DNA of 26,556 nt from Spirochaetia bacterium (GTDB lineage: Bacteria > Spirochaetota > Spirochaetia > Treponematales > Breznakiellaceae), in contig BNUY01000024.1 of the NCBI GenBank assembly GCA_025997715.1, positions 1-26,556 on the forward strand, given 5' to 3'. Of this stretch, positions 17,148 to 26,235 are shown in pieces (the first letter of the stretch is position 1; every line of letters starts with the position of its first letter). The notes beneath the pieces were generated by a model, which was not told where the DNA came from, made no database searches, and saw only the letters and a program-made list of their open reading frames with translations. The translations under genes and the position numbers were made by a program.

Positions 17148-17428
17148 GTCTACACCTGTAGACACCCGGGCTTAGTACCGGGATAGGGGGCCGGTCCACC
17201 GGGGGGCTTTATGGATCCCGGCATCACCGCCTGCGCGGAGGGGCGGTGCTGACCCATCAGACCAAGGTCTGGGATCCTCGGGCGCCCATTCGCTTTTTAA
17301 TCAAGGTAGGTTTCGCATAGGTTCTTCCATTGGAATGAACCCTTCCATGCTGCCGGATGAGTGGGGTGAGCCTGCCGCTCTGTCCTAAGGCTCAGGCTGT
17401 CCGGGGGAGTGCTTCCGGACAGCCTTTT
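17148..17428 (+). ncRNA. Candidate structured noncoding RNA (unidentified)
   Basis: No credible protein frame lies between pyrF and the cassette array. This GC-rich stretch can form successive hairpins: GTCTAC/GTAGAC (17148-17163), CCCGG/CCGGG (17165-17182), CCGG/CCGG (17191-17202), an outer GGATCCC/GGGATCC helix (17213-17219 with 17271-17277) enclosing CACCGCC/GGCGGTG and AGAC/GTCT, then GGTTCTTCC/GGAATGAACC (17320-17341) and GAGCCT/AGGCTC, before a terminator. It does not show the signatures of RNase P RNA, tmRNA, SRP RNA or 6S RNA that I could recognise. The transcript could instead be a long pyrF 3' UTR. No convincing promoter was found, so the 5' end is a guess. Confidence 0.4.
17395..17428 (+). 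terminator. Rho-independent terminator
   Basis: A perfect 10-bp GC-rich stem, GGCTGTCCGG (17395-17404) with CCGGACAGCC (17415-17424), and a 10-base loop followed by TTTT. It ends the candidate RNA and would isolate the cassette array from upstream transcription. Confidence 0.8.
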
Positions 17429-17540
17429 AGGTGCGGTAGTTTTATTGGCGAAGCGTTCTGTCCTGAAAATCCGGAGTCCCTTGGATAGGGTGGAAGTGGG
17501 GGATGACTAAAAGGTTCGTATATATCGCTGGGTTGGGGTA

Positions 17541-17577
17541 TTATGCGAAATGGGTTGCGTATACAGGGAGTTATGCG
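17541..17577 (+). other. attI: attI-like integron insertion site
   Basis: The core GTTATGC at 17570-17576 is the junction where the first cassette begins; the R'' of the first attC (GCATAAC, 18034-18040) is its exact reverse complement. Upstream lies GCGTATAC, an L-box-like sequence resembling CGTCGTATAG next to the attC cores, so a simple L-R site is present. TTATGCGAAAT is repeated 30 bases upstream at 17541, comparable to the accessory direct repeats of attI sites. There is no inverted R''/L'' partner upstream, which distinguishes it from an attC. Confidence 0.65.
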
Positions 17578-17636
17578 AAATTGGGGCTAAGCTTTTTGTA
17601 AATATTAAGAAAAGAATAAATCATATTAAAATAATA

Positions 17637-17665
17637 TTGACAAAAAAGTTATAAAATAATAGAAT
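17637..17665 (+). promoter_or_regulatory. Promoter of cassette 1
   Basis: TTGACA, 17 bases, TAGAAT. The predicted start near 17672 leaves a very short leader that begins at the ribosome-binding site. Confidence 0.75.
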
Positions 17666-17684
17666 AAATGTGAGGATATATTTT

Positions 17685-17993
17685 ATGATAATTTTAAATG
17701 GAAAATTAAGATTTTTTTATTTTCTCAATGTTATATTTATAATTATATCAAGTATTATTTTGTGGATAATATATTTTATTAATAATGGATTAAATAATTT
17801 TAAAAATATTTTTTCATTAATAATATTGTCAAATATCGTATTGATTGGAGTTTCATTTGGTTTATTATTTCTTATAGTAAATATAATAGTATTACTAAAA
17901 TATAAAAAACTTATATCATTAATAATATGTTTATTTGTATTGTTATGGGTATTATTTTCATTTCATTTTATGTTATTTGGAGTATTGCCATAA
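17685..17993 (+). CDS. Cassette 1: small membrane protein, unknown function
   Basis: 102 residues from the ATG at 17685, 8 bases after GAGGA; a GTG at 17670 would precede that site. Three strongly hydrophobic segments (residues about 8-30, 38-65 and 72-97) leave almost no soluble domain. The base composition is extremely AT-rich, in sharp contrast to pyrF, which fits foreign origin. The gene is the first of the array and has its own promoter. No family is recognised; small membrane proteins of unknown role are common integron cargo. Confidence 0.7.
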   Translation: MIILNGKLRFFYFLNVIFIIISSIILWIIYFINNGLNNFKNIFSLIILSNIVLIGVSFGLLFLIVNIIVLLKYKKLISLIICLFVLLWVLFSFHFMLFGVLP

Positions 17994-18033
17994 AAACATT
18001 AAAATATAGAATAATGGGGTACGCCCCAACTTC

Positions 18034-18202
18034 GCATAACATACGCTATACGCTGCGCCGCAGTAGCGGCTTGGCCTACAGAAAAACGCAGTCGGCCTAC
18101 GGCCTTTGTGCGTTTTTCTTCCGGCACATTTTTGCGGTTGCTGGAAACCTACGGTTTCCTTTATCGCAACCGCAAAAACGTCGTATAGCTTTCACGTTAT
18201 GC
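18034..18202 (+). repeat. attC: attC site 1
   Basis: 169 bp from R'' GCATAAC to R' GTTATGC. L boxes GCTATACG and CGTATAGC pair. Internal arms: GCCGC/GCGGC, AAAAACGCA/TGCGTTTTT enclosing GGCC/GGCC, and GCGGTTGC/GCAACCGC capped by GGAAACC-TAC-GGTTTCC. Confidence 0.92.
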
Positions 18203-18242
18203 GAAATTGGGCCTAACATTTGTTAGAATATAAAAAAATATA

Positions 18243-18271
18243 TTGACAAAATAATAAAACCATAATATTAT
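18243..18271 (+). promoter_or_regulatory. Promoter of cassette 2
   Basis: TTGACA, 17 bases, TATTAT, just downstream of attC 1. Confidence 0.8.
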
Positions 18272-18290
18272 TAAATAAAAGGAGCATTTT

Positions 18291-19112
18291 ATGAAAAAGA
18301 TAAGTTGCGTTTTTTTTGTATTTATATTGGCAATTACTTTGATTCTTCCAGCATTTGGACAAAATGAAGCAGAATTTTCCGTCGCACTTAATATCGCGGG
18401 TGATGGCGTTGCAATCACAGGTTATACCGGCATAAGTACGACAATAAGAATCCCGGCCACAATACAAGGTATGCCGGTAAAGGAAATAGCCACACAAGCT
18501 TTTAGAAATTTCACTCCATTGGGGGATGGTCCTGCTATAACTAGCGTTACAATCCCCGAAGGTGTTGTGGTTATTAGAAATGCTGCTTTTCAAAATTGTA
18601 AATCACTCCGTACAATTACATTTCCGGCAAGTTTGCGAATTATTGAGTCCTATGCTTTTAATCTTTGTGAAAGTCTTAATACAATAGAAATACCAGAGGG
18701 CGTATCTGAGATTCAGTCAAATGCTTTTGTTGATTGTACTTCTCTCAAGGCAGTTAAACTGCCCAAAACTCTTACTATGATAAAAGGTGGTACTTTTTCT
18801 GGTTGCAGGAGTTTGAAAAACATTACAATTCCAGAAGGTATTACTGTAATTGAAGGGGGATTTAATGGATGTCGTTCATTAGAATCTGTAGTCTTGCCTT
18901 CCACAATTTCTGAAATACATGGTGGGTCTTTTATGAATTGTGAAAATCTTATTACCGTTACTATTCCTGATTCAGTGGTAACCATAGAGTTTACAGATGG
19001 GAGAGGAGGGGTATGGCGCAGTAAGGCTCTTAATTGTTTTGAAGGTTGTAAAAGGCTCAATATTGCTTCGCAATCGGCCCTTAGAAAACGAGGTTACGAA
19101 GGTGTTTTTTAG
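18291..19112 (+). CDS. Cassette 2: secreted leucine-rich-repeat (BspA-like, LRR_5) protein
   Basis: 273 residues with AGGAG 7 bases before the ATG. A signal peptide spans residues 1-24 (MKKISCVFFVFILAITLILP, cleavage near AFG-Q). From about residue 45 there are seven or eight repeats of about 23 residues with the BspA/TpLRR pattern, for example SVTIPEGVVVIRNAAFQNC, TIEIPEGVSEIQSNAFVDC and NITIPEGITVIEGGFNGC. The repeat is I/L-x-I-P-x-x-V-x-x-I-x-x-x-A/T-F-x-x-C. Such proteins are exported and often mediate adhesion or protein binding in Treponema and Bacteroidetes. The last repeat is irregular (an insert with GRGGVWRSKAL). It is a surface-type cargo in a cassette, and GC content is higher than in cassettes 1, 6 and 7. 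Confidence 0.85.
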   Translation: MKKISCVFFVFILAITLILPAFGQNEAEFSVALNIAGDGVAITGYTGISTTIRIPATIQGMPVKEIATQAFRNFTPLGDGPAITSVTIPEGVVVIRNAAFQNCKSLRTITFPASLRIIESYAFNLCESLNTIEIPEGVSEIQSNAFVDCTSLKAVKLPKTLTMIKGGTFSGCRSLKNITIPEGITVIEGGFNGCRSLESVVLPSTISEIHGGSFMNCENLITVTIPDSVVTIEFTDGRGGVWRSKALNCFEGCKRLNIASQSALRKRGYEGVF

Positions 19113-19165
19113 AAAGTAATTATATGAAAAAATTGAAAATAAATTATGGGGTACGGCCCAACTTC

Positions 19166-19336
19166 GCATAACACACGCTATACGCTTCGCCGCCAGTAGG
19201 CGGCTCGGCCTCCACAAAAACGCAGTCGGCCTGCGGCCTTTGTGCATTTTTGTTCCGGCACATTTTTGCGGTTGCTGGAAACCTGCGGTTTCCTTTATCG
19301 CAACCGCAAAAACGTCGTATAGCTTTCACGTTAGGC
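19166..19336 (+). repeat. attC: attC site 2
   Basis: 171 bp, R'' GCATAAC to R' GTTAGGC. The first arm is changed on both sides relative to other copies (GCCGCC/GGCGGC). The last arm matches attC 1 (GCGGTTGC/GCAACCGC), and its cap is GGAAACC-TGC-GGTTTCC. Confidence 0.92.
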
Positions 19337-19402
19337 GAAATACGATTTTTAACGTGGTCCCCAAAAATATAAGAAAAATCATATGAAATTCCGTATAAAG
19401 TA

Positions 19403-19431
19403 TTGACTAAACCGAAATGTTGTATTATATT
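19403..19431 (+). promoter_or_regulatory. Promoter of cassette 3 (toxin-antitoxin)
   Basis: TTGACT, 17 bases, TATATT, ending 18 bases before the antitoxin start codon. It lies downstream of an in-frame ATG at 19417, arguing that translation starts at 19450. Confidence 0.75.
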
Positions 19432-19449
19432 ATGTACAAGAGGTATATT

Positions 19450-19728
19450 ATGATAGATTTAGTCCAGAATATTAAGCCGATTTCTTATGTAAAGGCACAT
19501 ACCACCGAGATTGTTAAGAATGTGGGAGAAACAAAATCTCCCATAGTAATAACTCAAAATGGCGAGGCAAAGGCGGTAATTATAGACATTGATAGTTACC
19601 AAAGGACATTAAATGCTATAAATTTGGCAAAATTATTGAGTTTCAGTGAAATTGACTTAAAAAATGGCAATATTGTGACCCATGAAAATGCAAAAAAACG
19701 TTTTGAAAAAACATTGGGTAGAAAATAA
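19450..19728 (+). CDS. Cassette 3: Phd/YefM-type antitoxin
   Basis: 92 residues from the ATG at 19450 (MIDLVQNIKPISYVKAHT), preceded by AGAGG. The N-terminal half matches the Phd/YefM DNA-binding fold: ISYVKAHTTEIVKNVGETKSP followed by IVITQNGEAKAVIIDIDSYQ. The C-terminal part (HENAKKRFEKTLGRK) is the flexible toxin-wrapping tail. The protein binds its own promoter and neutralises the toxin encoded immediately after it. One base separates the two genes. Antitoxin-toxin pairs are frequent in large cassette arrays, where they are thought to stabilise the array. Confidence 0.88.
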   Translation: MIDLVQNIKPISYVKAHTTEIVKNVGETKSPIVITQNGEAKAVIIDIDSYQRTLNAINLAKLLSFSEIDLKNGNIVTHENAKKRFEKTLGRK

Positions 19729-19729
19729 G

Positions 19730-20065
19730 ATGAGAGAAATTATTTGGGCAAAACATGGGGAAAATGCCCTTGATGATATTTTAAAATATATCATAGAAAA
19801 TTCTGGCCCAATTAATGCACGGAAAGTATATGATGAAATAATAGGTAAAATTGAATTATTAAAATCCGAGAGAGTTACCACCAGAAAATCACTTGAATTA
19901 TCAGAAATTGGTATTAATGATATTCATGAAATAAATATAAAACCATGGAAGATATATTATAAAATATTGAATGATAATAAATTAGTGTCAATACAATATA
20001 TATTAGACACCAGAAGAAATATAGAAGAAGTATTATTAAATTTAGTAATAGAAAATAAATTATAA
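19730..20065 (+). CDS. Cassette 3: RelE/ParE-superfamily toxin
   Basis: 111 residues from the ATG at 19730, one base after the antitoxin stop; a frame from 19682 would overlap the antitoxin by 47 bases and is less likely. The ParE-like order is visible: AKHGENALDDILKYI (first helix), ARKVYDEIIGKIELL (second helix), then strands in HEINIKPWKIYYKILNDNKLVSIQYILDTRRN-type order, including the closing arginines of DTRRN. RelE members cleave ribosome-bound mRNA, and ParE members poison gyrase; sequence alone does not decide which. It is the downstream member of the pair, in the order antitoxin then toxin. Confidence 0.85.
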   Translation: MREIIWAKHGENALDDILKYIIENSGPINARKVYDEIIGKIELLKSERVTTRKSLELSEIGINDIHEINIKPWKIYYKILNDNKLVSIQYILDTRRNIEEVLLNLVIENKL

Positions 20066-20081
20066 AGAAAAATCGTACTTC

Positions 20082-20251
20082 GCCTAACATACGCTATACG
20101 CTGCGCCGCAGTAGCGGCTTGACCTACGAAAAACCCCAGTCGGCGCAGTAGCGCCTTTATGGGGTTTTTCTCCGGTACATTTTTATGGCCCTGGAAACCT
20201 ACGGTTTCCTTATTCGGGCCATAAAAACGTCGTATAGCTTTCACGTTATGT
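20082..20251 (+). repeat. attC: attC site 3
   Basis: 170 bp, R'' GCCTAAC to R' GTTATGT. Arms: GCCGC/GCGGC; AAAAACCCC/GGGGTTTTT enclosing GGCGC/GCGCC; and ATGGCC/GGCCAT capped by GGAAACC-TAC-GGTTTCC. Confidence 0.92.
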
Positions 20252-20285
20252 GCAATAAAAATGCAGAAATTTTCAGAAAAAACTA

Positions 20286-20314
20286 TTGACATAAAAATAA
20301 AATTATGTTAATAT
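20286..20314 (+). promoter_or_regulatory. Promoter of cassette 4
   Basis: TTGACA, 17 bases, TAATAT. The expected transcription start is at about 20321, adjacent to the ATG of a 13-codon leader frame at 20322. Confidence 0.8.
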
Positions 20315-20321
20315 GAAAGCC

Positions 20322-20363
20322 ATGGATTTTCTTAAAATGTTTTCAATACCTCGTATGGGGTAA
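20322..20363 (+). CDS. Possible 13-codon leader peptide
   Basis: ATG to TAA encoding MDFLKMFSIPRMG. It lies between the cassette 4 promoter and the first structural gene and has no ribosome-binding site, so it would have to be read from a leaderless mRNA. Supported only by position and by the folding potential that follows it. Confidence 0.25.
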   Translation: MDFLKMFSIPRMG

Positions 20364-20376
20364 AAAAGTTAGGTGG

Positions 20377-20403
20377 CTGTGCTCCTTAATAGCACAGAAG
20401 GAG
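20377..20403 (+). promoter_or_regulatory. Possible ribosome-binding-site switch in the cassette 4 leader
   Basis: CTGTGC (20377-20382) can pair with GCACAG (20392-20397). CTCCTT (20382-20387), in the loop of that hairpin, is the exact complement of the ribosome-binding site AAGGAG (20398-20403). The two pairings are mutually exclusive, so the leader could switch between an exposed and a hidden site. Confidence 0.4.
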
Positions 20404-20412
20404 AAAATGGTT

Positions 20413-20850
20413 ATGTCAGCATTAAAATCTGGTATAGTGTTGGGAGAAGGTGAAAACCTTGTCATGGAACTAGAGGCGGAATTATGGGCGACAAGCTCCA
20501 ATCCAATCGCTCGGTTTTTTGGAGAAGTCGCTAAATTTATCGCGAAAATTTTTGGGACAAGAATCTCTGGTTTTTTGGTGATTACCGACAAACGAGTTTG
20601 TGAAGTCAAAACACAAATTGCTTGTTATTGTTTCACCGTTGGAAGACAGGTTAAATATGTTCTTCCAAGTAGTGTAAAAGAAATTGGCTATGATAGATCT
20701 GCAACATTTGCTTGCTGTTGCCCAGCGTATCATCTCTACTATGAAGGATTTACTCAACGTACTTCAGTTCTGTTAAAAGGTGTTGATGAAGCAGGTGCGA
20801 AGAAAGCAGCCGATGCTTTCTATAACGCAATCGTTCATAGTCAGAAATAA
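20413..20850 (+). CDS. Cassette 4, gene 1: soluble protein with possible PH-like domain
   Basis: 145 residues. AAGGAG at 20398-20403 is 9 bases before the ATG at 20413 and only 3 before the ATG at 20407. The segment GTRISGFLVITDKRVCEVKTQ resembles the opening strands of bacterial PH-like domains (G-x-L-x-I-T-D-K-R), followed by a YVLPSSVKEIGY strand, and the C-terminal helix DEAGAKKAADAFYNAI would cap the barrel. A cysteine cluster (FACCCP, about residue 103-108) is unusual and could bind metal or be lipid-modified. It is first in a three-gene cassette with two membrane proteins. The assignment is weak. Confidence 0.6.
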   Translation: MSALKSGIVLGEGENLVMELEAELWATSSNPIARFFGEVAKFIAKIFGTRISGFLVITDKRVCEVKTQIACYCFTVGRQVKYVLPSSVKEIGYDRSATFACCCPAYHLYYEGFTQRTSVLLKGVDEAGAKKAADAFYNAIVHSQK

Positions 20851-20867
20851 TCGGGGATTGTGTTCCT

Positions 20868-21284
20868 GTGCAGACATTTAGATTTTTGTATATTAACATT
20901 TACGCTTTTCTTTTGTCTGCATTAGGAATACTTGTCGTTGTAATACCATTGTATAAAATAACATGGATTCTGTTGGTAGTTCAATGTTTGATAGCAATAA
21001 AACTCTTTGTAATTTCGATACAACTATTTTCTACATGGGATTCAAAGAAAAGGGAACTCATACTTTTAAAAAATCGAAATAGTATAAAATTTCGACCGGA
21101 TACATTCAAAATTTATATGCAAGCACCATGTTCGCGATTAGTTGTCCGGTCTGTCCTGGGTGACTTAAATTTGCAAAATAAATATAAAGAATTGCTGGTT
21201 TATAAAAAACCCTTTTTTGCTATGATTAAGGAAAATTTACAGCCCGTAAAACAAAGTATCTATATTAACGAGGATTATCTATGA
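20868..21284 (+). CDS. Cassette 4, gene 2: membrane protein, unknown
   Basis: 138 residues from a GTG at 20868, with GGGGA 10 bases upstream. Two hydrophobic helices (residues about 8-30 and 32-52) form a hairpin anchor with a short loop, followed by about 85 cytoplasmic or periplasmic residues rich in Lys and Arg (SKKRELILLKNRNSIKF). No known domain. The stop overlaps the next start codon (ATGA), indicating coupled translation with gene 3. Confidence 0.6.
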   Translation: MQTFRFLYINIYAFLLSALGILVVVIPLYKITWILLVVQCLIAIKLFVISIQLFSTWDSKKRELILLKNRNSIKFRPDTFKIYMQAPCSRLVVRSVLGDLNLQNKYKELLVYKKPFFAMIKENLQPVKQSIYINEDYL

Positions 21285-21922
21285 GTACTATTTTACTATT
21301 GCTATGCGTTGGCATTGCTATTTTGTTGGCAATTCTTGTTAATAAAAAAATCATAAGTAAATATGAAAACACGACAAAAAACGTGTTGTATGTGGTAACA
21401 TTTGTAGTATTTATATTGGCAGGATTGTCGGTTTTTGCTATTTCAAGAGTTCAAAAATGGGTTGCTGAAATTATTGTAGAGAAAATCGATTTTGTCGAAG
21501 AAATTATTGTCACTGCATACCCTGACAATGTTTTGGTAACTTCTGGTATAAATAGTGACGAAGTTCAAGATGGTATTGATGAATTGCGCGATTTATTTCC
21601 CGTTTCTATTATTGACGATGATGGTCTTTTTACGGCAATAATTGAAAGCCAATATAAAAACTATATTGATATTGTGTTCAATAAACTTGAATCAAAAATA
21701 AATTTGATTACACGGTTTGCAGAAAATGATGTTGTAACTTTATCATCTTTTCTTGTGGCCATAGAGACCATAGCGTTTTCATATTGTAACAAAGCGTTTT
21801 TAATTGTATATTTGATTGTTTTTGTAATTATAGGAATATATTTGATTTGTTGTGTTGTTATGCGAAACAAAAATATAATTTCGTATAATAAATCAATAAC
21901 TTTTGGTGGAGAAGATACTTAA
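21281..21922 (+). CDS. Cassette 4, gene 3: membrane protein, unknown
   Basis: 213 residues. Two N-terminal transmembrane segments (about 2-20 and 36-55), a 110-residue soluble acidic region between them and the last helix (KWVAEIIVEKIDFVEEIIV; DELRDLFPVSIIDDDGLF), and a C-terminal transmembrane helix at about 175-195. The topology suggests a domain held between membrane anchors. It overlaps gene 2 by 4 bases. No family is recognised. Together, genes 1-3 look like a single membrane-associated complex. Confidence 0.6.
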   Translation: MSTILLLLCVGIAILLAILVNKKIISKYENTTKNVLYVVTFVVFILAGLSVFAISRVQKWVAEIIVEKIDFVEEIIVTAYPDNVLVTSGINSDEVQDGIDELRDLFPVSIIDDDGLFTAIIESQYKNYIDIVFNKLESKINLITRFAENDVVTLSSFLVAIETIAFSYCNKAFLIVYLIVFVIIGIYLICCVVMRNKNIISYNKSITFGGEDT

Positions 21923-21968
21923 CTCAATGTTTGACAGTAAAGACTGTGTGTAGCAGCATTTTTACTGC

Positions 21969-22140
21969 ACATAACATACGCTATACGCTGCGCCGCAGTA
22001 GCGGCTTGACCTACGAAAAACCCCAGTCGGCGCAGTAGCGCCTTAGTGGGGTTTTTCTCCGGCACATTTTTAGTGGCGCTGGAATGCTACGCATTCCTTT
22101 ATCGCGCCACTAAAAACGTCGTATAGCTTTCACGTTATGT
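21969..22140 (+). repeat. attC: attC site 4
   Basis: 172 bp, R'' ACATAAC to R' GTTATGT. The last arm is AGTGGCGC/GCGCCACT with cap GGAATGC-TAC-GCATTCC, both changed by compensating bases relative to attC 3. Confidence 0.92.
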
Positions 22141-22170
22141 GCAATACCGCCTAAACTGGTTGAATAATTA

Positions 22171-22199
22171 TTGACTAAATTTAAAGAATAATATAAAAT
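22171..22199 (+). promoter_or_regulatory. Promoter of cassette 5
   Basis: TTGACT, 17 bases, TAAAAT. Confidence 0.78.
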
Positions 22200-22220
22200 A
22201 ATTATTAAGGAGTATTTAGA

Positions 22221-23009
22221 ATGAATAACAATGAAGGATTAAAAGATTTTTATACAAAATGTATAAATTGTGAGCTGTGTCCGTGTTTGACTTTAGACAA
22301 ATTTGAACATGAACGTGAAATTGAACAAAAACTTAAGCAAAAAGGGGAAAGCCTATATCCGTTAAAATGTGAACCTTATTTTCTAAGAGACATAGAAAAA
22401 GGAATTCCTCCACGAGGATTTTATTTCCAAAATTCTCCAGTTGAAATTCTTGTTGTTGGCCAAAACCCTGGTCATCCTTTTGAAGATGAAAAGTTAAAAT
22501 TGCAAAGAAAACCAGGCGAAAGTCTTATTGAAAGGTGGTTCTGTTTTTTTAAAAAAATTTATGATAAAATACCAAATTCTACAGATCAAACATTGATATT
22601 TCATAAAAATCTTTTTAGGTATATCAGTTTTATACTTGATATCACAGACAATCTCATGGATTTCAAAAATGTCCAAGAGAATTATAATCCCAATATTTTC
22701 AACGAAACATATCGACGTATAGCTTTTACTAATTTAGTAAAATGTAGTACCCGCAATGAAAGGCAAAAATTAACTGATGATTTAATTGCCCCTTGTTATA
22801 AAAAGTATTTTTTGAATGAAATTAAATATTTTCAGCCAAAGGTAATTTTAGCATTGGGAAGAGATGTTGAAAATTATCTTAAGAGACAGAAGAATTATCC
22901 TAAAAAACAAATTATAAATATAAGACATCCCACTCTTTTTTATCGAAAAGAGGAAGAGAAAGAAAAACTTGAAAATATAAAAAAATCAATACACGAATTA
23001 TTAAAGTAA
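22221..23009 (+). CDS. Cassette 5: uracil-DNA glycosylase superfamily protein (family-4-like)
   Basis: 262 residues; AAGGAG 8 bases before the ATG. The UDG-fold motifs appear in order: ILVVGQNPGH (76-85, the water-activating motif), FTNLVKCSTRNER (169-181), CYKKYFLNEIKYFQPKVILALGRDV (split here: CYKKYF and PKVILALGRDV, 192-216) and the DNA-binding NIRHPT (233-238). Cys14, Cys17, Cys175 and Cys192 can form the iron-sulfur cluster typical of family 4, and Cys175-x16-Cys192 has the right spacing. An extra Cys-rich start (CINCELCPC) and an insert before the second motif make it longer than typical family 4 (about 200 residues). It may repair deaminated DNA, or act on other nucleic acids, as several accessory UDG-like proteins do. 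Confidence 0.8.
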   Translation: MNNNEGLKDFYTKCINCELCPCLTLDKFEHEREIEQKLKQKGESLYPLKCEPYFLRDIEKGIPPRGFYFQNSPVEILVVGQNPGHPFEDEKLKLQRKPGESLIERWFCFFKKIYDKIPNSTDQTLIFHKNLFRYISFILDITDNLMDFKNVQENYNPNIFNETYRRIAFTNLVKCSTRNERQKLTDDLIAPCYKKYFLNEIKYFQPKVILALGRDVENYLKRQKNYPKKQIINIRHPTLFYRKEEEKEKLENIKKSIHELLK

Positions 23010-23036
23010 AATAATAATAGGGTACGGCGGTACTGC

Positions 23037-23206
23037 ACATAACATACGCTATACGCTGCGCCGCAGTAGCGGCTTGGCCTACGAAAAATCCCAGTCGGCG
23101 CAGTAGCGCCTTTGTGGGGTTTTTCTCCGGCACATTTTTATGGCCCTGGAAACCTACGGTTTCCTTATTCGGGCCATAAAAACGTCGTATAGCTTTCACG
23201 TTAGGT
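23037..23206 (+). repeat. attC: attC site 5
   Basis: 170 bp, R'' ACATAAC to R' GTTAGGT. The middle arm has AAAAATCCC opposite GGGGTTTTT (one G-T wobble); otherwise close to attC 3. Confidence 0.92.
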
Positions 23207-23237
23207 GCAATATTTTTTGAAATTTGTTGAAAAATAA

Positions 23238-23266
23238 TTGACAAAAATAAAAACATATTATAAAAT
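23238..23266 (+). promoter_or_regulatory. Promoter of cassette 6
   Basis: TTGACA, 17 bases, TAAAAT. Confidence 0.8.
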
Positions 23267-23301
23267 TGTATGTATGAAAAAATATATATGGAGGAAATAT
23301 T

Positions 23302-23850
23302 ATGAAAATTAAAATAAAGAAAATAAAAGTGGAAGAAAAAGAAATATTAAGAAATTTAATGGAAAAATACCTTTATGAATTTTCTCAATATGAGGATACT
23401 GATGTTAATAAATTGGGCTTATACGGTTATAATTGGTTAGATTGTTATTGGACTGAAAAAAATAGATATTCATATTTTATATTAGTGGATAATGTTTTAG
23501 CCGGTTTTGTTTTGATAAATGATTACCCTGAAAATAATATAAAAACGGATTATACAATGGCTGAATTCTTTATAATGTATAAATACAGACGTTTTGGTAT
23601 AGGAAAATATATTGTATATAACGTTTTGAATAAATATAAAGGAAAATGGCAAATAATGTATCACCCAAAAAACATAGGTTCATTAAAATTTTGGAATAAT
23701 ATAATAAAAGAATATACAAATGGACAATATAGAATTATAAAAGATAATAAGGAAGCATTATACAGAGACGGAACGATGGGAGAAGTAATAATATTTGATA
23801 ATAAAAACATGGAAAACAAGGATATAAAAATAAAAGAAAGAAATATATAA
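23302..23850 (+). CDS. Cassette 6: GNAT-family N-acetyltransferase
   Basis: 182 residues; GGAGG 8 bases before the ATG. The GNAT order is visible: N-terminal KIKVEEKEILRNLMEKYL, the strand YFILVDNVLAGFVLIND, then motif A AEFFIMYKYRRFGIGK (about 92-107, with the acetyl-CoA pyrophosphate loop R-R-x-G-I-G-K) and motif B PKNIGSLKFWNNII. The substrate is unknown. GNAT enzymes are common in integron arrays and may modify antibiotics, tRNA-linked toxins or proteins; no specific subfamily is assigned. The C-terminal tail (NKNMENKDIKIKERNI) is low-complexity and probably disordered. Strongly AT-rich. Confidence 0.82.
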   Translation: MKIKIKKIKVEEKEILRNLMEKYLYEFSQYEDTDVNKLGLYGYNWLDCYWTEKNRYSYFILVDNVLAGFVLINDYPENNIKTDYTMAEFFIMYKYRRFGIGKYIVYNVLNKYKGKWQIMYHPKNIGSLKFWNNIIKEYTNGQYRIIKDNKEALYRDGTMGEVIIFDNKNMENKDIKIKERNI

Positions 23851-23865
23851 AGCAAAAAATACTGC

Positions 23866-24035
23866 ACCTAACATACGCTATACGCTGCGCCGCAGTAGCG
23901 GCTTGACCTACGAAAAACCCCAGTCGGCGCAGTAGCGCCTTTGTGGGGTTTTTCTCCGGTACATTTTTGTGCCCCTGGAAACCTACGGTTTCCTTATTCG
24001 GGGCACAAAAACGTCGTATAGCTTTCACGTTATAC
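23866..24035 (+). repeat. attC: attC site 6
   Basis: 170 bp, R'' ACCTAAC to R' GTTATAC. The last arm is GTGCCCC/GGGGCAC, again compensated on both strands. Confidence 0.92.
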
Positions 24036-24150
24036 GCAATTTTTTTACCCAAATTTGTCACTGAAAATACCCTTCATGGCGCTTGAAATTGACTTTGTTG
24101 CAATGCTAATTCTTTATATTATAAGGAATTATAAAATATTTTAACGCCTC

Positions 24151-24179
24151 TTGACAAAAATAAAGATATGATGTTATAT
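24151..24179 (+). promoter_or_regulatory. Promoter of cassette 7
   Basis: TTGACA, 17 bases, TTATAT. Confidence 0.78.
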
Positions 24180-24196
24180 AAATTAAGGAGAAAAAA

Positions 24197-24937
24197 ATGG
24201 GTATTCAAACATCAAAATCTGGCGTGAAAATTTATGACAATTTCAGGGAAAATCTTATTATTTCTAGGTATGACAATCAATTTGTTAATATGCGGGGCAA
24301 AAAAATTGAATGTTTGAAAAGTAGTAATAGCGAAGATGCTTTAACATGGAATTATTTTAAATCTTTAAGAGAAATTAATCCAGAGGCATGGTTGCCCAAA
24401 TTATTTGAGTATTCTTTTGGTAATGGATATAATTATCCATTAGACAATATAGGTATATATTTGTGGAAAAACATATCAGCTCCTCCTTCAATTACTGAAA
24501 TTCAGAAAGATGAGGGTGATTCTGAAATTGATATAATAATAGAATCAAATCAGTTTGTTTGGTTTTTAGAAGCAAAATATACATCTGACATTTCTTTAAA
24601 CACGAAAAACAACGAAAACAGGGATCAAATAATTAGGAATATTGATGTTGGTTCTTATTATGCTGGAGTTAAGGATTTTTATTTTTCATTAATATATTTT
24701 GATGAAAATAAATCAAAATTGGGTATTGGAAAAGTAGCCGAATATAAAAATTTAAAAACCGCTGAATTAAAAAAAATATTACCGCATCGCCATGATTCTT
24801 TGGAAAATATAAAAGGAATTGGATATTTAAAGTGGATTGATTTATTCAAAAATAAAATAAAAATAAATAATCCTTGTGAAGAGGATATTTATGATAAATT
24901 GTGTGATTATATAGAAAATCTAGGTATTAGAAATTAG
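24197..24937 (+). CDS. Cassette 7: PD-(D/E)XK nuclease-like protein
   Basis: 246 residues; AAGGAG 7 bases before the ATG. The N-terminal half has SNSEDALTWNYFKSL (43-57) with an acidic residue often part of this fold. The core DSEIDIIIESNQFVWFLEAK (108-127) gives Asp112 and Glu125-x-Lys127, the D...ExK metal-binding triad. RDQIIRNID (about 143-151) supplies a Q-containing helix, as in restriction-type nucleases. It is the layout of restriction-endonuclease-like proteins with an uncertain target. No methyltransferase is encoded nearby, so it is not a simple restriction-modification system. A role in defence or in DNA processing is inference. Confidence 0.7.
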   Translation: MGIQTSKSGVKIYDNFRENLIISRYDNQFVNMRGKKIECLKSSNSEDALTWNYFKSLREINPEAWLPKLFEYSFGNGYNYPLDNIGIYLWKNISAPPSITEIQKDEGDSEIDIIIESNQFVWFLEAKYTSDISLNTKNNENRDQIIRNIDVGSYYAGVKDFYFSLIYFDENKSKLGIGKVAEYKNLKTAELKKILPHRHDSLENIKGIGYLKWIDLFKNKIKINNPCEEDIYDKLCDYIENLGIRN

Positions 24938-24959
24938 TTGTAAGGGGTAAAAAAACTGC

Positions 24960-25131
24960 GTATAACATACGGTTTGCGGTTCGGGGCTAAAGCCCCTCCG
25001 GGTTCCGTTCGCCTAGGTCAGTCGCTGCGCTCCTTCCCACGGCTCACTCCACCCACATTTTGGCGGCCCTGGTCTTGCTACGCAAGCCCTTATTCGGGCC
25101 GCCAAAACGTCGCAAACCTTTCACGATAGAC
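24960..25131 (+). repeat. attC: attC site 7, diverged and probably damaged
   Basis: 172 bp. R'' GTATAAC correctly complements the start of cassette 7 (GTTATAC). The L boxes are replaced on both sides (GGTTTGCG with CGCAAACC), the first arm is GGGGC-TAAA-GCCCC, and the last is GGCGGCCC/GGGCCGCC capped by CTTGC-TAC-GCAAG. The terminal R' reads GATAGAC, with A in place of the conserved T of GTT, so recombination here is doubtful. Confidence 0.8.
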
Positions 25132-25321: not shown

Positions 25322-25393
25322 ATGGGGTACGGAAAGTGGTTTAACTCAAACGAAATACAGACTGCAAATAAATTAAGGGGAATAGGGAAGTGA
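25322..25393 (+). CDS. Possible 23-residue coupled leader ORF
   Basis: GGGAG at 25311-25315 is 6 bases before an ATG at 25322. The frame (starting MGYGKWFNSNEIQ) ends with a TGA that overlaps the GTG start of the next gene (GTGA). It could couple translation. The same frame is open back to 25265, but that ATG lies within the -10 box. Evidence is positional only. Confidence 0.3.
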   Translation: MGYGKWFNSNEIQTANKLRGIGK

Positions 25394-26235
25394 AGAAGTT
25401 TTTTACAGGTATAGCGTTGTTTTTGTTATGCTGTATTTGCTGGGGGCAGCAACCCGAAGGCTTTGTCCGCATCCAGGGCGGTACATTCCTCATGGGCAGC
25501 CCGCCATCGGAAGCAGGTCGCAGTGATAATGAAACACAACACCGGGTAACGGTGAGCGCTTTTTACCTGGGTAAGCACGAAGTAACCCAGGCAGAATATG
25601 AAGCGATGATGGGCAACAATCCGAGCAACTGGAAGGGTGCGAACCTGCCGGTAGAACAGGTAAACTGGTATGACGCGGTGGAATACTGTAATGCACGCAG
25701 TAAACAGGAAGGATTAACCCCGGCGTACACGATACACAAATCCAGTTCAGACCCGAATAACCGAAACAGCAATGACAACGTACGCTGGAGCGTAACATGG
25801 AACAAAAATGCGAACGGCTACCGCTTGCCCACCGAGGCTGAGTGGGAATATGCCTGCCGTGCGAACACCACAACGCCCTTTAGTACGGGAAATACTATAA
25901 CCACCGACCAGGCGAATTATAACGGTAACTCCCCCTATGCGAATAACCCCAAGGGAACCTACCGGGAAAAGACAACGAAGGTCGGCAGTTTCGCCCCCAA
26001 TTCCTGGGGCTTATACGACATGCACGGGAATGCGTGGGAGTGGTGCTGGGACTGGGACGGTGGATACAGCATGACAGACCAGACAGACCCCACGGGTGTC
26101 GTTTCGGGGTCTAACCGCGTGTATCGCGGCGGTAGTTGGTACAGCAGCGCCGTGATGCTGCGGTCGGCCTTTCGGCGCAGCTATACCCCTTCGGCCCGTT
26201 ACGCCAGCATCGGTTTTCGCGTTGTCCGTCCCTGA
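25390..26235 (+). CDS. Secreted SUMF1/formylglycine-generating-enzyme-fold protein with probable variable C-terminus
   Basis: 281 residues from a GTG at 25390 with AAGGGG 9 bases upstream. A signal peptide spans residues 1-20 (FFTGIALFLLCCICWGQ). The SUMF1/FGE fold follows: FVRIQGGTFLMGSP, HRVTVSAFYLGKHEVTQAEY, LPVEQVNWYDAVEYCN, YRLPTEAEWEYACRA, GLYDMHGNAWEWCWD and VYRGGSWYSSAV. The C-terminal cysteine pair of true formylglycine-generating enzymes is absent, so it is not a sulfatase activator. The C-terminal 35 residues match the layout of variable repeats in Treponema variable proteins (TvpA type), where diversified positions sit in RGGSW...RSA.R...P..R...IGFR. The protein is probably a surface or periplasmic ligand-binding protein. 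Confidence 0.8.
   Translation: MKKFFTGIALFLLCCICWGQQPEGFVRIQGGTFLMGSPPSEAGRSDNETQHRVTVSAFYLGKHEVTQAEYEAMMGNNPSNWKGANLPVEQVNWYDAVEYCNARSKQEGLTPAYTIHKSSSDPNNRNSNDNVRWSVTWNKNANGYRLPTEAEWEYACRANTTTPFSTGNTITTDQANYNGNSPYANNPKGTYREKTTKVGSFAPNSWGLYDMHGNAWEWCWDWDGGYSMTDQTDPTGVVSGSNRVYRGGSWYSSAVMLRSAFRRSYTPSARYASIGFRVVRP
26134..26232 (+). repeat. Possible variable repeat (VR) of a diversity-generating retroelement
   Basis: It encodes WYSSAVMLRSAFRRSYTPS and then ARYASIGFRVVRP. Conserved anchors (RSAFR, TP, R, IGFR) alternate with blocks of 2-4 differing residues. Many of the differing codons end in C (TAC, AGC, AGC; CGC, AGC; TAC, GCC, AGC), as expected if they derive from AAC by adenine mutagenesis. 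No Asn is left here, although the rest of the gene uses many AAC codons. No template repeat or retroelement reverse transcriptase is in the window. Confidence 0.45.

Follow-up and report, generated by a model that had tools for sequence, protein, structure and literature searches.

A cassette array in a Breznakiellaceae genome

The window, contig BNUY01000024.1 of a Spirochaetia bacterium (Treponematales; Breznakiellaceae), a spirochaete of the termite-gut type, analyzed over its full 26,556 bp, carries seven tandem gene cassettes, each ending in an attC-like recombination site. It is an entire contig of a metagenome-assembled genome (MAG) of 3.38 Mb in 447 contigs, with 76.9% completeness, and the host genus includes Treponema primitia ZAS-2 (genome G038, whose recombinase is the ZAS-2 protein, is congeneric). 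The array probably belongs to a sister lineage of integrons, moved by a recombinase that resembles the integron integrase IntI, lacks its I2 insertion, and is encoded upstream of such arrays in relatives; in the window's own genome this recombinase may have been lost, lie elsewhere, or be unassembled. What is new, judging from sequence, is a broad lineage of this kind, in which the linked recombinase is without I2 and the sites are without the matching extrahelical base.

The cassettes span positions 17571 to 25125, and each attC site measures 169 to 172 bp from the first base of R'' to the last base of R'. The initial annotation had described a seven-cassette array of AT-rich units with all genes in one direction, and we recovered every coordinate and attC site; the common direction and the AT richness held for the listed genes.

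17492..17570, +, left border, attI-like (putative), ending in GGGAG and preceding the first cassette core
17571..18196, +, cassette 1: open reading frame (ORF) 17670-17993, hydrophobic 107-amino-acid (aa) protein, no family (Pfam)
17637..17665, +, promoter-like site of cassette 1; like sites start at 18243, 19403, 20286, 22171, and 23238
18034..18202, +, attC 1, R'' to R'
18197..19330, +, cassette 2: 18291-19112, BspA-type leucine-rich repeat protein, LRR_5 (PF13306, E 1.3e-41); N terminus signal-like by eye
19166..19336, +, attC 2, R'' to R'
19331..20245, +, cassette 3: Phd/YefM antitoxin 19450-19728 (PF02604) and ParE-family toxin 19727-20065 (PF05016)
20082..20251, +, attC 3, R'' to R'
20246..22134, +, cassette 4: ORFs 20407-20850, 20868-21284, and 21281-21922, no family (Pfam, PADLOC)
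21969..22140, +, attC 4, R'' to R'
22135..23200, +, cassette 5: 22221-23009, uracil-DNA-glycosylase superfamily protein (PF03167, E 1.1e-9)
23037..23206, +, attC 5, R'' to R'
23201..24029, +, cassette 6: 23302-23850, GNAT acetyltransferase-like (PF00583, E 2.9e-5)
23866..24035, +, attC 6, R'' to R'
24030..25125, +, cassette 7: 24197-24937, 246 aa, no family (Pfam, PADLOC), PD-(D/E)xK-like motif only by eye
24960..25131, +, attC 7, divergent; R' is GATAGAC and runs into the flank (right end of the array)

Pfam bears out the cargo proposed earlier for the LRR_5, Phd/YefM-ParE, uracil-DNA-glycosylase superfamily, and GNAT products, while the supposed nuclease (24197-24937) and membrane operon (20407-21922) matched nothing in Pfam or PADLOC at E 0.001.

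Paired cassette ends and the folding of attC

In every window cassette, R'' complements the core at the start of the same cassette, as had been claimed (7/7, from cassette 1 to cassette 7: TTATGC, TTATGC, TTAGGC, TTATGT, TTATGT, TTAGGT, and TTATAC). The complementarity extends beyond the core over 18 to 22 nt and is interrupted solely at position 11, where A at the start stands opposite C at the end. We extended the analysis to 61 treponeme cassettes, derived from 121 attC model hits, of which 88 were full-length and 84 had both boxes placed. With position 11 allowed, the complementary run between a cassette and its own end had a median of 18 nt and reached at least 15 nt in 41 of the 61, compared with at most 9 nt in canonical cassettes (n = 55). 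The match to the own start was 0.95 at positions 5 to 7 and 0.89 to 0.97 at positions 13 to 16, against 0.51 to 0.56 and 0.33 to 0.38, respectively, for the start of the next cassette; position 12 was near-constant (own, 1.00; next, 0.87). At least five of six matches at positions 12 to 17 were found in 54/61 treponeme cassettes and in 0/55 canonical ones, part of the latter being misplaced, since their boundaries are noisy (own match of just 0.62 to 0.65 at positions 4 to 7). Canonical cassettes of G027, parsed separately (n = 10), matched at 0.9 to 1.0 over positions 1 to 8 and at 0.0 at position 9.

The interruption is itself conserved. Among 92 sites of the new type (61 treponeme, 23 Firmicutes, and 8 other spirochaete, the 31 non-treponeme sites being hand-picked where the start of the next cassette fixes R'), position 11 presented A facing C in 88 and a non-Watson-Crick pair in 91. 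Cassettes detected de novo near recombinase genes (described below) had the mismatch in 57 of 59 at non-treponeme loci and 32 of 32 at treponeme-type loci; because these were chosen by end complementarity, they speak for linkage and for position 11 but not for complementarity itself. An A/C pair on the top strand corresponds to a T/G wobble on the bottom strand. In an array, R'' faces the start of the next cassette, so the extended pairing is confined to the excised circle. Ends of this kind could also be taken to have no part in recombination and instead to terminate transcription or shield the cassettes from one another; they flank every gene, and several have T-runs. That reading seems to us hardly credible, as the pairing partner in the array lies across the gene, so that no local hairpin would form, and the fixed mismatch sits where the arm of a recombinase site would be expected.

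The new-type sites also differ from canonical attC in their arms. A one-base bulge at L'', the single extrahelical base examined, was present in 0/92 new-type sites (including the seven in the window) and in 63/70 canonical sites; one Firmicutes site of the new type prefers a bulge in L'. The canonical sites came from six arrays of IntI-bearing spirochaetes, G190, G178, G146, G187, G242, and G027, of which G187 is probably T. succinifaciens, its coordinates matching those that PMC3607928 gives for this species. All 70 sites kept were bulged (63 at L'', 7 at L', and 0 unbulged), with a detector that requires arms of at least 9 pairs and thereby favors bulged sites, while allowing unbulged 9-pair sites. 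The bulge counter is sequence-based; of 13 comparator sites, 1 was misparsed and 12 showed the bulge as the best arm.

In predicted DNA folding, the bottom strand was more stable than the top strand in 90 of the 92 sites. For all 61 treponeme sites, the seven of the window included, the bottom strand paired both R and L arms and was the more stable of the two. Because the ends pair over a median of 18 nt rather than 8 to 9, the hairpin is predicted to be far stronger in the excised circle: the circle form was more stable than the array form in 60/61 sites, by a mean of -10.7 kcal/mol.

An array-linked recombinase without I2

An attC match was found in 36 of the 58 genomes of a family sample that consists mostly of fragmented MAGs and, by handle numbers, is contained in a larger set of 145 genomes. 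Canonical IntI occurred in 5 of the 145; the attC query matched none of the 3 of these that lie within the family sample, and IntI is absent from all 36 attC-positive family genomes. Instead, a tyrosine recombinase of ~390 to 420 aa lies upstream of the arrays, on the same strand, in Breznakiella homolactica, T. primitia, and G018. In the complete genome of B. homolactica it is followed by 39 attC model hits, one of them partial, and in that of T. primitia ZAS-2, attC sites begin 0.8 kb downstream of it and recur at intervals across ~27 kb. The recombinase is present in 22/58 family genomes, 18 of which are attC positive. At the treponeme-type loci L166 to L212 (n = 47), 29 contigs stop within 1.5 kb downstream of the recombinase match, and a cassette-like core lies 57 to 620 bp from the match in 22 (raw count). 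Together with L239, these loci yielded 32 end-complementary cassettes in 86 kb downstream of the recombinase, found at 14 of the 25 loci where 1 kb or more of sequence was available; the controls gave 1 in 60 kb upstream and 2 in shuffled sequence.

The same linkage extends beyond treponemes. Among the best 80 of 201 relatives, those at 41 to 53% identity came from Paenibacillus, Saccharibacillus, Acididesulfobacillus, other Spirochaetes, Aminicenantes, Caldisericum, Krumholzibacteriota, Ignavibacteriae, Bacteroidetes, a Saliniplasma archaeon, and Woesearchaeota. The non-treponeme loci yielded 59 end-complementary cassettes over 110 kb downstream; of the 19 loci with 1 kb or more, 16 had at least one and 12 had two or more. 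The 84 kb upstream contained 2, and shuffled sequence gave 3. L213, L215, and L217 had no cassette under the criterion used, and L240 to L242 gave 0, 0, and 1 weak hit. None of 11 searched non-treponeme genomes bearing the recombinase had an IntI over the cutoff. In 146 genomes of the order, IntI was found in 51 and recombinase matches in 35, with both in a single genome (G177); matches from the order's other families (G145 onward) are similarity hits to the recombinase P0001. Integron-like arrays thus reach Paenibacillus and Saccharibacillus within the Firmicutes, a phylum in which, according to PMC9024848, integrons are extremely rare, with one complete integron and a few cassette clusters lacking an integrase (CALINs). 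PMC9668308 states that archaeal IntI proteins retain the additional domain, and PMC3607928 reports that T. primitia and T. azotonutricium show no trace of integrons; the T. primitia locus described here revises that report for this species.

The absence of I2 is evident in the recombinase sequence. The GKGxKDR-type motif and HxLRH stand 58 to 65 aa apart in 76/76 parsed loci (drawn from 80 fetched) and 100 aa apart in 120/120 canonical IntI proteins. Among the best 120 of 7021 protein hits, 116 had a spacing of 57 to 65, 3 were pattern artifacts, and 1 was without the motif; the printed sequences contained no insertion. The recombinase is ~40 residues shorter than IntI precisely at I2, and the alignment gap covers the I2 segment of the structure 2a3v. 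The residues R, K, HxxR, H, and Y, which we take to be catalytic, were invariant in 16/16 aligned recombinases. An AlphaFold model built with 16 sequences (predicted local distance difference test score, 77; predicted template modeling score, 0.45) left the domain packing uncertain and was not used for the I2 claim.

All eight recombinases tested scored 186 to 219 bits with the IntI model TIGR02249, under its cutoff of 265; with NF040815 they scored 205 to 241 bits, and three of the eight passed the cutoff of 220, so NCBI may already call some members "site-specific tyrosine recombinase/integron integrase." "Integron integrase" was the name of none of the best 120 protein hits, which were called XerD, phage, tyrosine-type or site-specific integrase, or hypothetical or had no name. 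Unlike XerA-type proteins, the recombinase adjoins cassette arrays, mostly has an extra N-terminal stretch, and groups with IntI rather than with the two XerA sequences in our tree. By eye, the N-terminal ~90 aa common to the recombinases (P0001 residues 1 to 80; L221) and the IntI of L050 show a HARP-like W..P..K.W..P pattern; no Pfam match was found there in four proteins scanned.

We built a tree of 61 sequences (34 I2-less, 19 IntI, and 8 Xer-type) over 291 columns. The I2-less group had an ultrafast bootstrap support of 97 and IntI one of 100, and the clade joining them had 98; I2-less recombinases and IntI are sister groups, and the recombinase groups with IntI, not with Xer. The Xer-type outgroup had no IntI-sized insertion in the 4/4 rows shown, so secondary loss costs one step more than one gain in IntI, and a single gain of I2 on the IntI branch would be the shortest account. 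The converse, that the recombinase lost I2 secondarily from an I2-bearing ancestor and the extended arm compensates, fits the sister relationship and the N-terminal extension that the two groups appear by eye to share, which make a common ancestor with I2 possible. With the extra step it demands, we regard it as rather unlikely, although IntI sampling is mostly spirochaete-like and the tree is unable to settle gain versus loss.

Several side observations concern individual loci. In G231, the I2-less recombinase has three matches. The 3.86-Mb complete genome G028 has two broken copies, one frameshifted and one internally deleted (L062, 6619 to 7293; L063, 14491 to 15546), near a few attC sites, and looks like a decaying system. 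In the Breznakiella array, closely similar short cassettes of ~160 bp, probably geneless, are repeated (L057, 3016 to 3480 and 7642 to 7805).

Proposed ownership, movement, and origin of the array

With seven attC sites and no integron integrase nearby, the window qualifies as a CALIN (at least two attC sites). An integron in the strict sense has an IntI with I2; none over the cutoff occurs here, and the recombinase linked to arrays in relatives lacks I2. The initial annotation had left the choice between a CALIN and an integron whose integrase lies outside the window, and placed the array beside the integrons of T. denticola. No integrase is indeed encoded in the window, but the comparison with T. 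denticola did not survive, as the recombinase at the head of the arrays in relatives is a different one that lacks the I2 insertion. The IntI search that the annotation proposed found eight stretches of the own 77%-complete assembly that match TIGR02249, all on other contigs and none at the cutoff (best, 72.6 bits versus 265). By eye, the two best resemble housekeeping XerC/XerD genes beside ftsZ-like, topA-like, and hslU-like genes, and the others resemble phage-type integrases; all were rejected as IntI. Dispersal of the repeats without cassette structure, named there as the contrary outcome, was found only in its first half: of 20 matches in the genome to one attC, 8 lie on the window's contig and the rest on others, and six of these other contigs (C92, C36, C53, C97, C111, and C107) carry end-complementary cassettes.

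A CALIN may also be left by a canonical integron. CALINs are proposed to arise by several routes, loss of intI among them (PMC8618304), and neither IntI nor the recombinase of the new type was found in the window's genome; the array could then derive from a lost T. denticola-type integron, and the I2-less recombinase beside similar arrays would be incidental. We think this improbable, because no such attC occurs in the family-sample genomes that bear IntI, canonical sites differ in arm length and bulge, and arrays are linked downstream to the I2-less recombinase across phyla. Still less probable is movement by XerC/XerD or another phage-type host recombinase. XerC and XerD move cassettes in pdif modules, and both (by eye), along with other tyrosine recombinases, are present in the genome. 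The attC sites, though, have integron-like arms, and Xer-type matches lie far from the arrays in B. homolactica (54 to 60 kb versus 3.52 Mb) and T. primitia (1.62 Mb versus 2.03 Mb).

Several results weigh against a sister lineage served by the I2-less recombinase. No copy of it was found in the window's own 77%-complete MAG or in the close relative G072 (90% complete); 18 of the 36 attC-positive family genomes are without it, and 4 of the 22 genomes that have it gave no attC-query match. Of the 25 treponeme-type loci offering 1 kb or more, 11 yielded no end-complementary cassette downstream, and L188, L207, and L209 depart from the other loci in that their attC hits near the recombinase are on the opposite strand. 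By eye, some attC sites of T. primitia and G018 permit a GG/CC pair across one base by L'', where an extrahelical base is conceivable, and the folding differences follow in part from the complementarity itself.

Sharing of cassettes between arrays bears on ownership. The Phd/YefM-ParE cassette 3 of the window also occurs in the recombinase-headed T. primitia array, with 96% and 88% aa identity and its paired ends kept; there, its attC is interrupted by what looks by eye like an insertion sequence. The flanks differ: none of the window's flanking genes was found around the T. primitia locus, and pyrF of G072 precedes other genes. The left border (17492 to 17570) is 82% identical over 99 bp to a G072 border that likewise precedes a cassette, and it aligns to the stretch before the first T. 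primitia cassette with a score of 41 (shuffles, 16.4 ± 3.2; 0/500 reach 41). G072 has attI-like borders at two separate places (L142:4605-4703 and L143:3609-3681), each directly before a cassette-like stretch. The border may be an attI, with the recombinase acting in trans or lost.

We envisage the following mechanism, in which recombinase action, strand choice, and insertion bias are predictions from sequence. The bottom strand of attC would fold into a hairpin, of which the recombinase would bind the long R arm and the L arm and exchange strands at the G|TT core with attI. A complete R arm would form only in the excised circle, since the complementarity between the end of a cassette and its own start runs to a median of 18 nt. 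Once the cassette is in the array, R'' would stand opposite the start of the next cassette and the outer arm would be lost, so that cassettes would be inserted more readily than excised. Instead of extrahelical bases of the kind that I2 reads, the cue to the reactive strand may here be the conserved A/C mismatch at position 11, which on the bottom strand is a T-G wobble.

Comparison with known systems places the new arrays close to integrons. Like the canonical same-direction Treponema type (Wu et al. 2013, PMC3607928), they have co-directional tandem cassettes and a G|TT core, and they share with canonical integrons R''/R' and L''/L' arms, a bottom-strand hairpin, an R'' matching its own start, and, at most loci seen here, a co-directional recombinase upstream. 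They differ in having no I2 and no L'' extrahelical base, in a median own-end complementarity of 18 nt with a fixed mismatch (8 to 9 nt in canonical cassettes), and in an attC length of ~170 bp, compared with 63 to 68 bp in T. denticola. The window resembles a CALIN as described for IntegronFinder (PMC9024848), with attC but no IntI; its relatives, however, have a linked recombinase that TIGR02249 scores below the cutoff. This recombinase is a likely owner for arrays that an IntI-based search would score as CALINs. By title or abstract, we recognized no report in the open-access literature searched of an I2-less integron integrase, of Paenibacillus integrons, or of extended cassette-end complementarity.

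In PMC7790495 and PMC4792948, I2 is held to be necessary for cassette capture and found in no other protein, and its coevolution with extrahelical bases, whose contacts are treated in PMC3053210, is called a chicken-and-egg paradox. A hypothetical I2-less ancestor of IntI (Escudero et al. 2016, PMC4792948; eLife 2020, PMC7790495) was there assumed to act on double-stranded sites; the recombinase described here is likewise IntI-like, I2-less, and sister to IntI, but adjoins arrays of folded attC. A natural I2-less recombinase tied to attC sites without the L'' extrahelical base makes the origin of I2 a testable question, and the lineage may show the form of integrons before I2 evolved. We suggest, tentatively, a living sister branch in the pre-I2 state, combining cassette capture by the I2-less recombinase, folded attC devoid of the L'' extrahelical base, an R arm of ~18 bp joining a cassette's own ends, strand choice by wobble, and directionality set by the circle. 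If so, folded cassettes would be older than I2, and the paradox of I2 and extrahelical bases would be resolved.

The remaining observations concern expression and flanking sequence. Promoter-like sites were found in 6/7 window cassettes (0.1/7 expected from shuffles), but a promoter for each cassette as a general rule was dropped (G004, 6/12; Breznakiella, 1/34; T. primitia, 1/5; G018, 0/3). By eye, the contig start (2 to 490) encodes a partial reverse transcriptase of the group II intron type with a YADD motif, and a SUMF1/formylglycine-type protein (HGNAWEWCWD) lies right of the array at 25390 to 26235. A repeat at 17165 to 17309 has dispersed copies in G072, six of them at 87 to 90% identity over 139 to 145 bp and others shorter.

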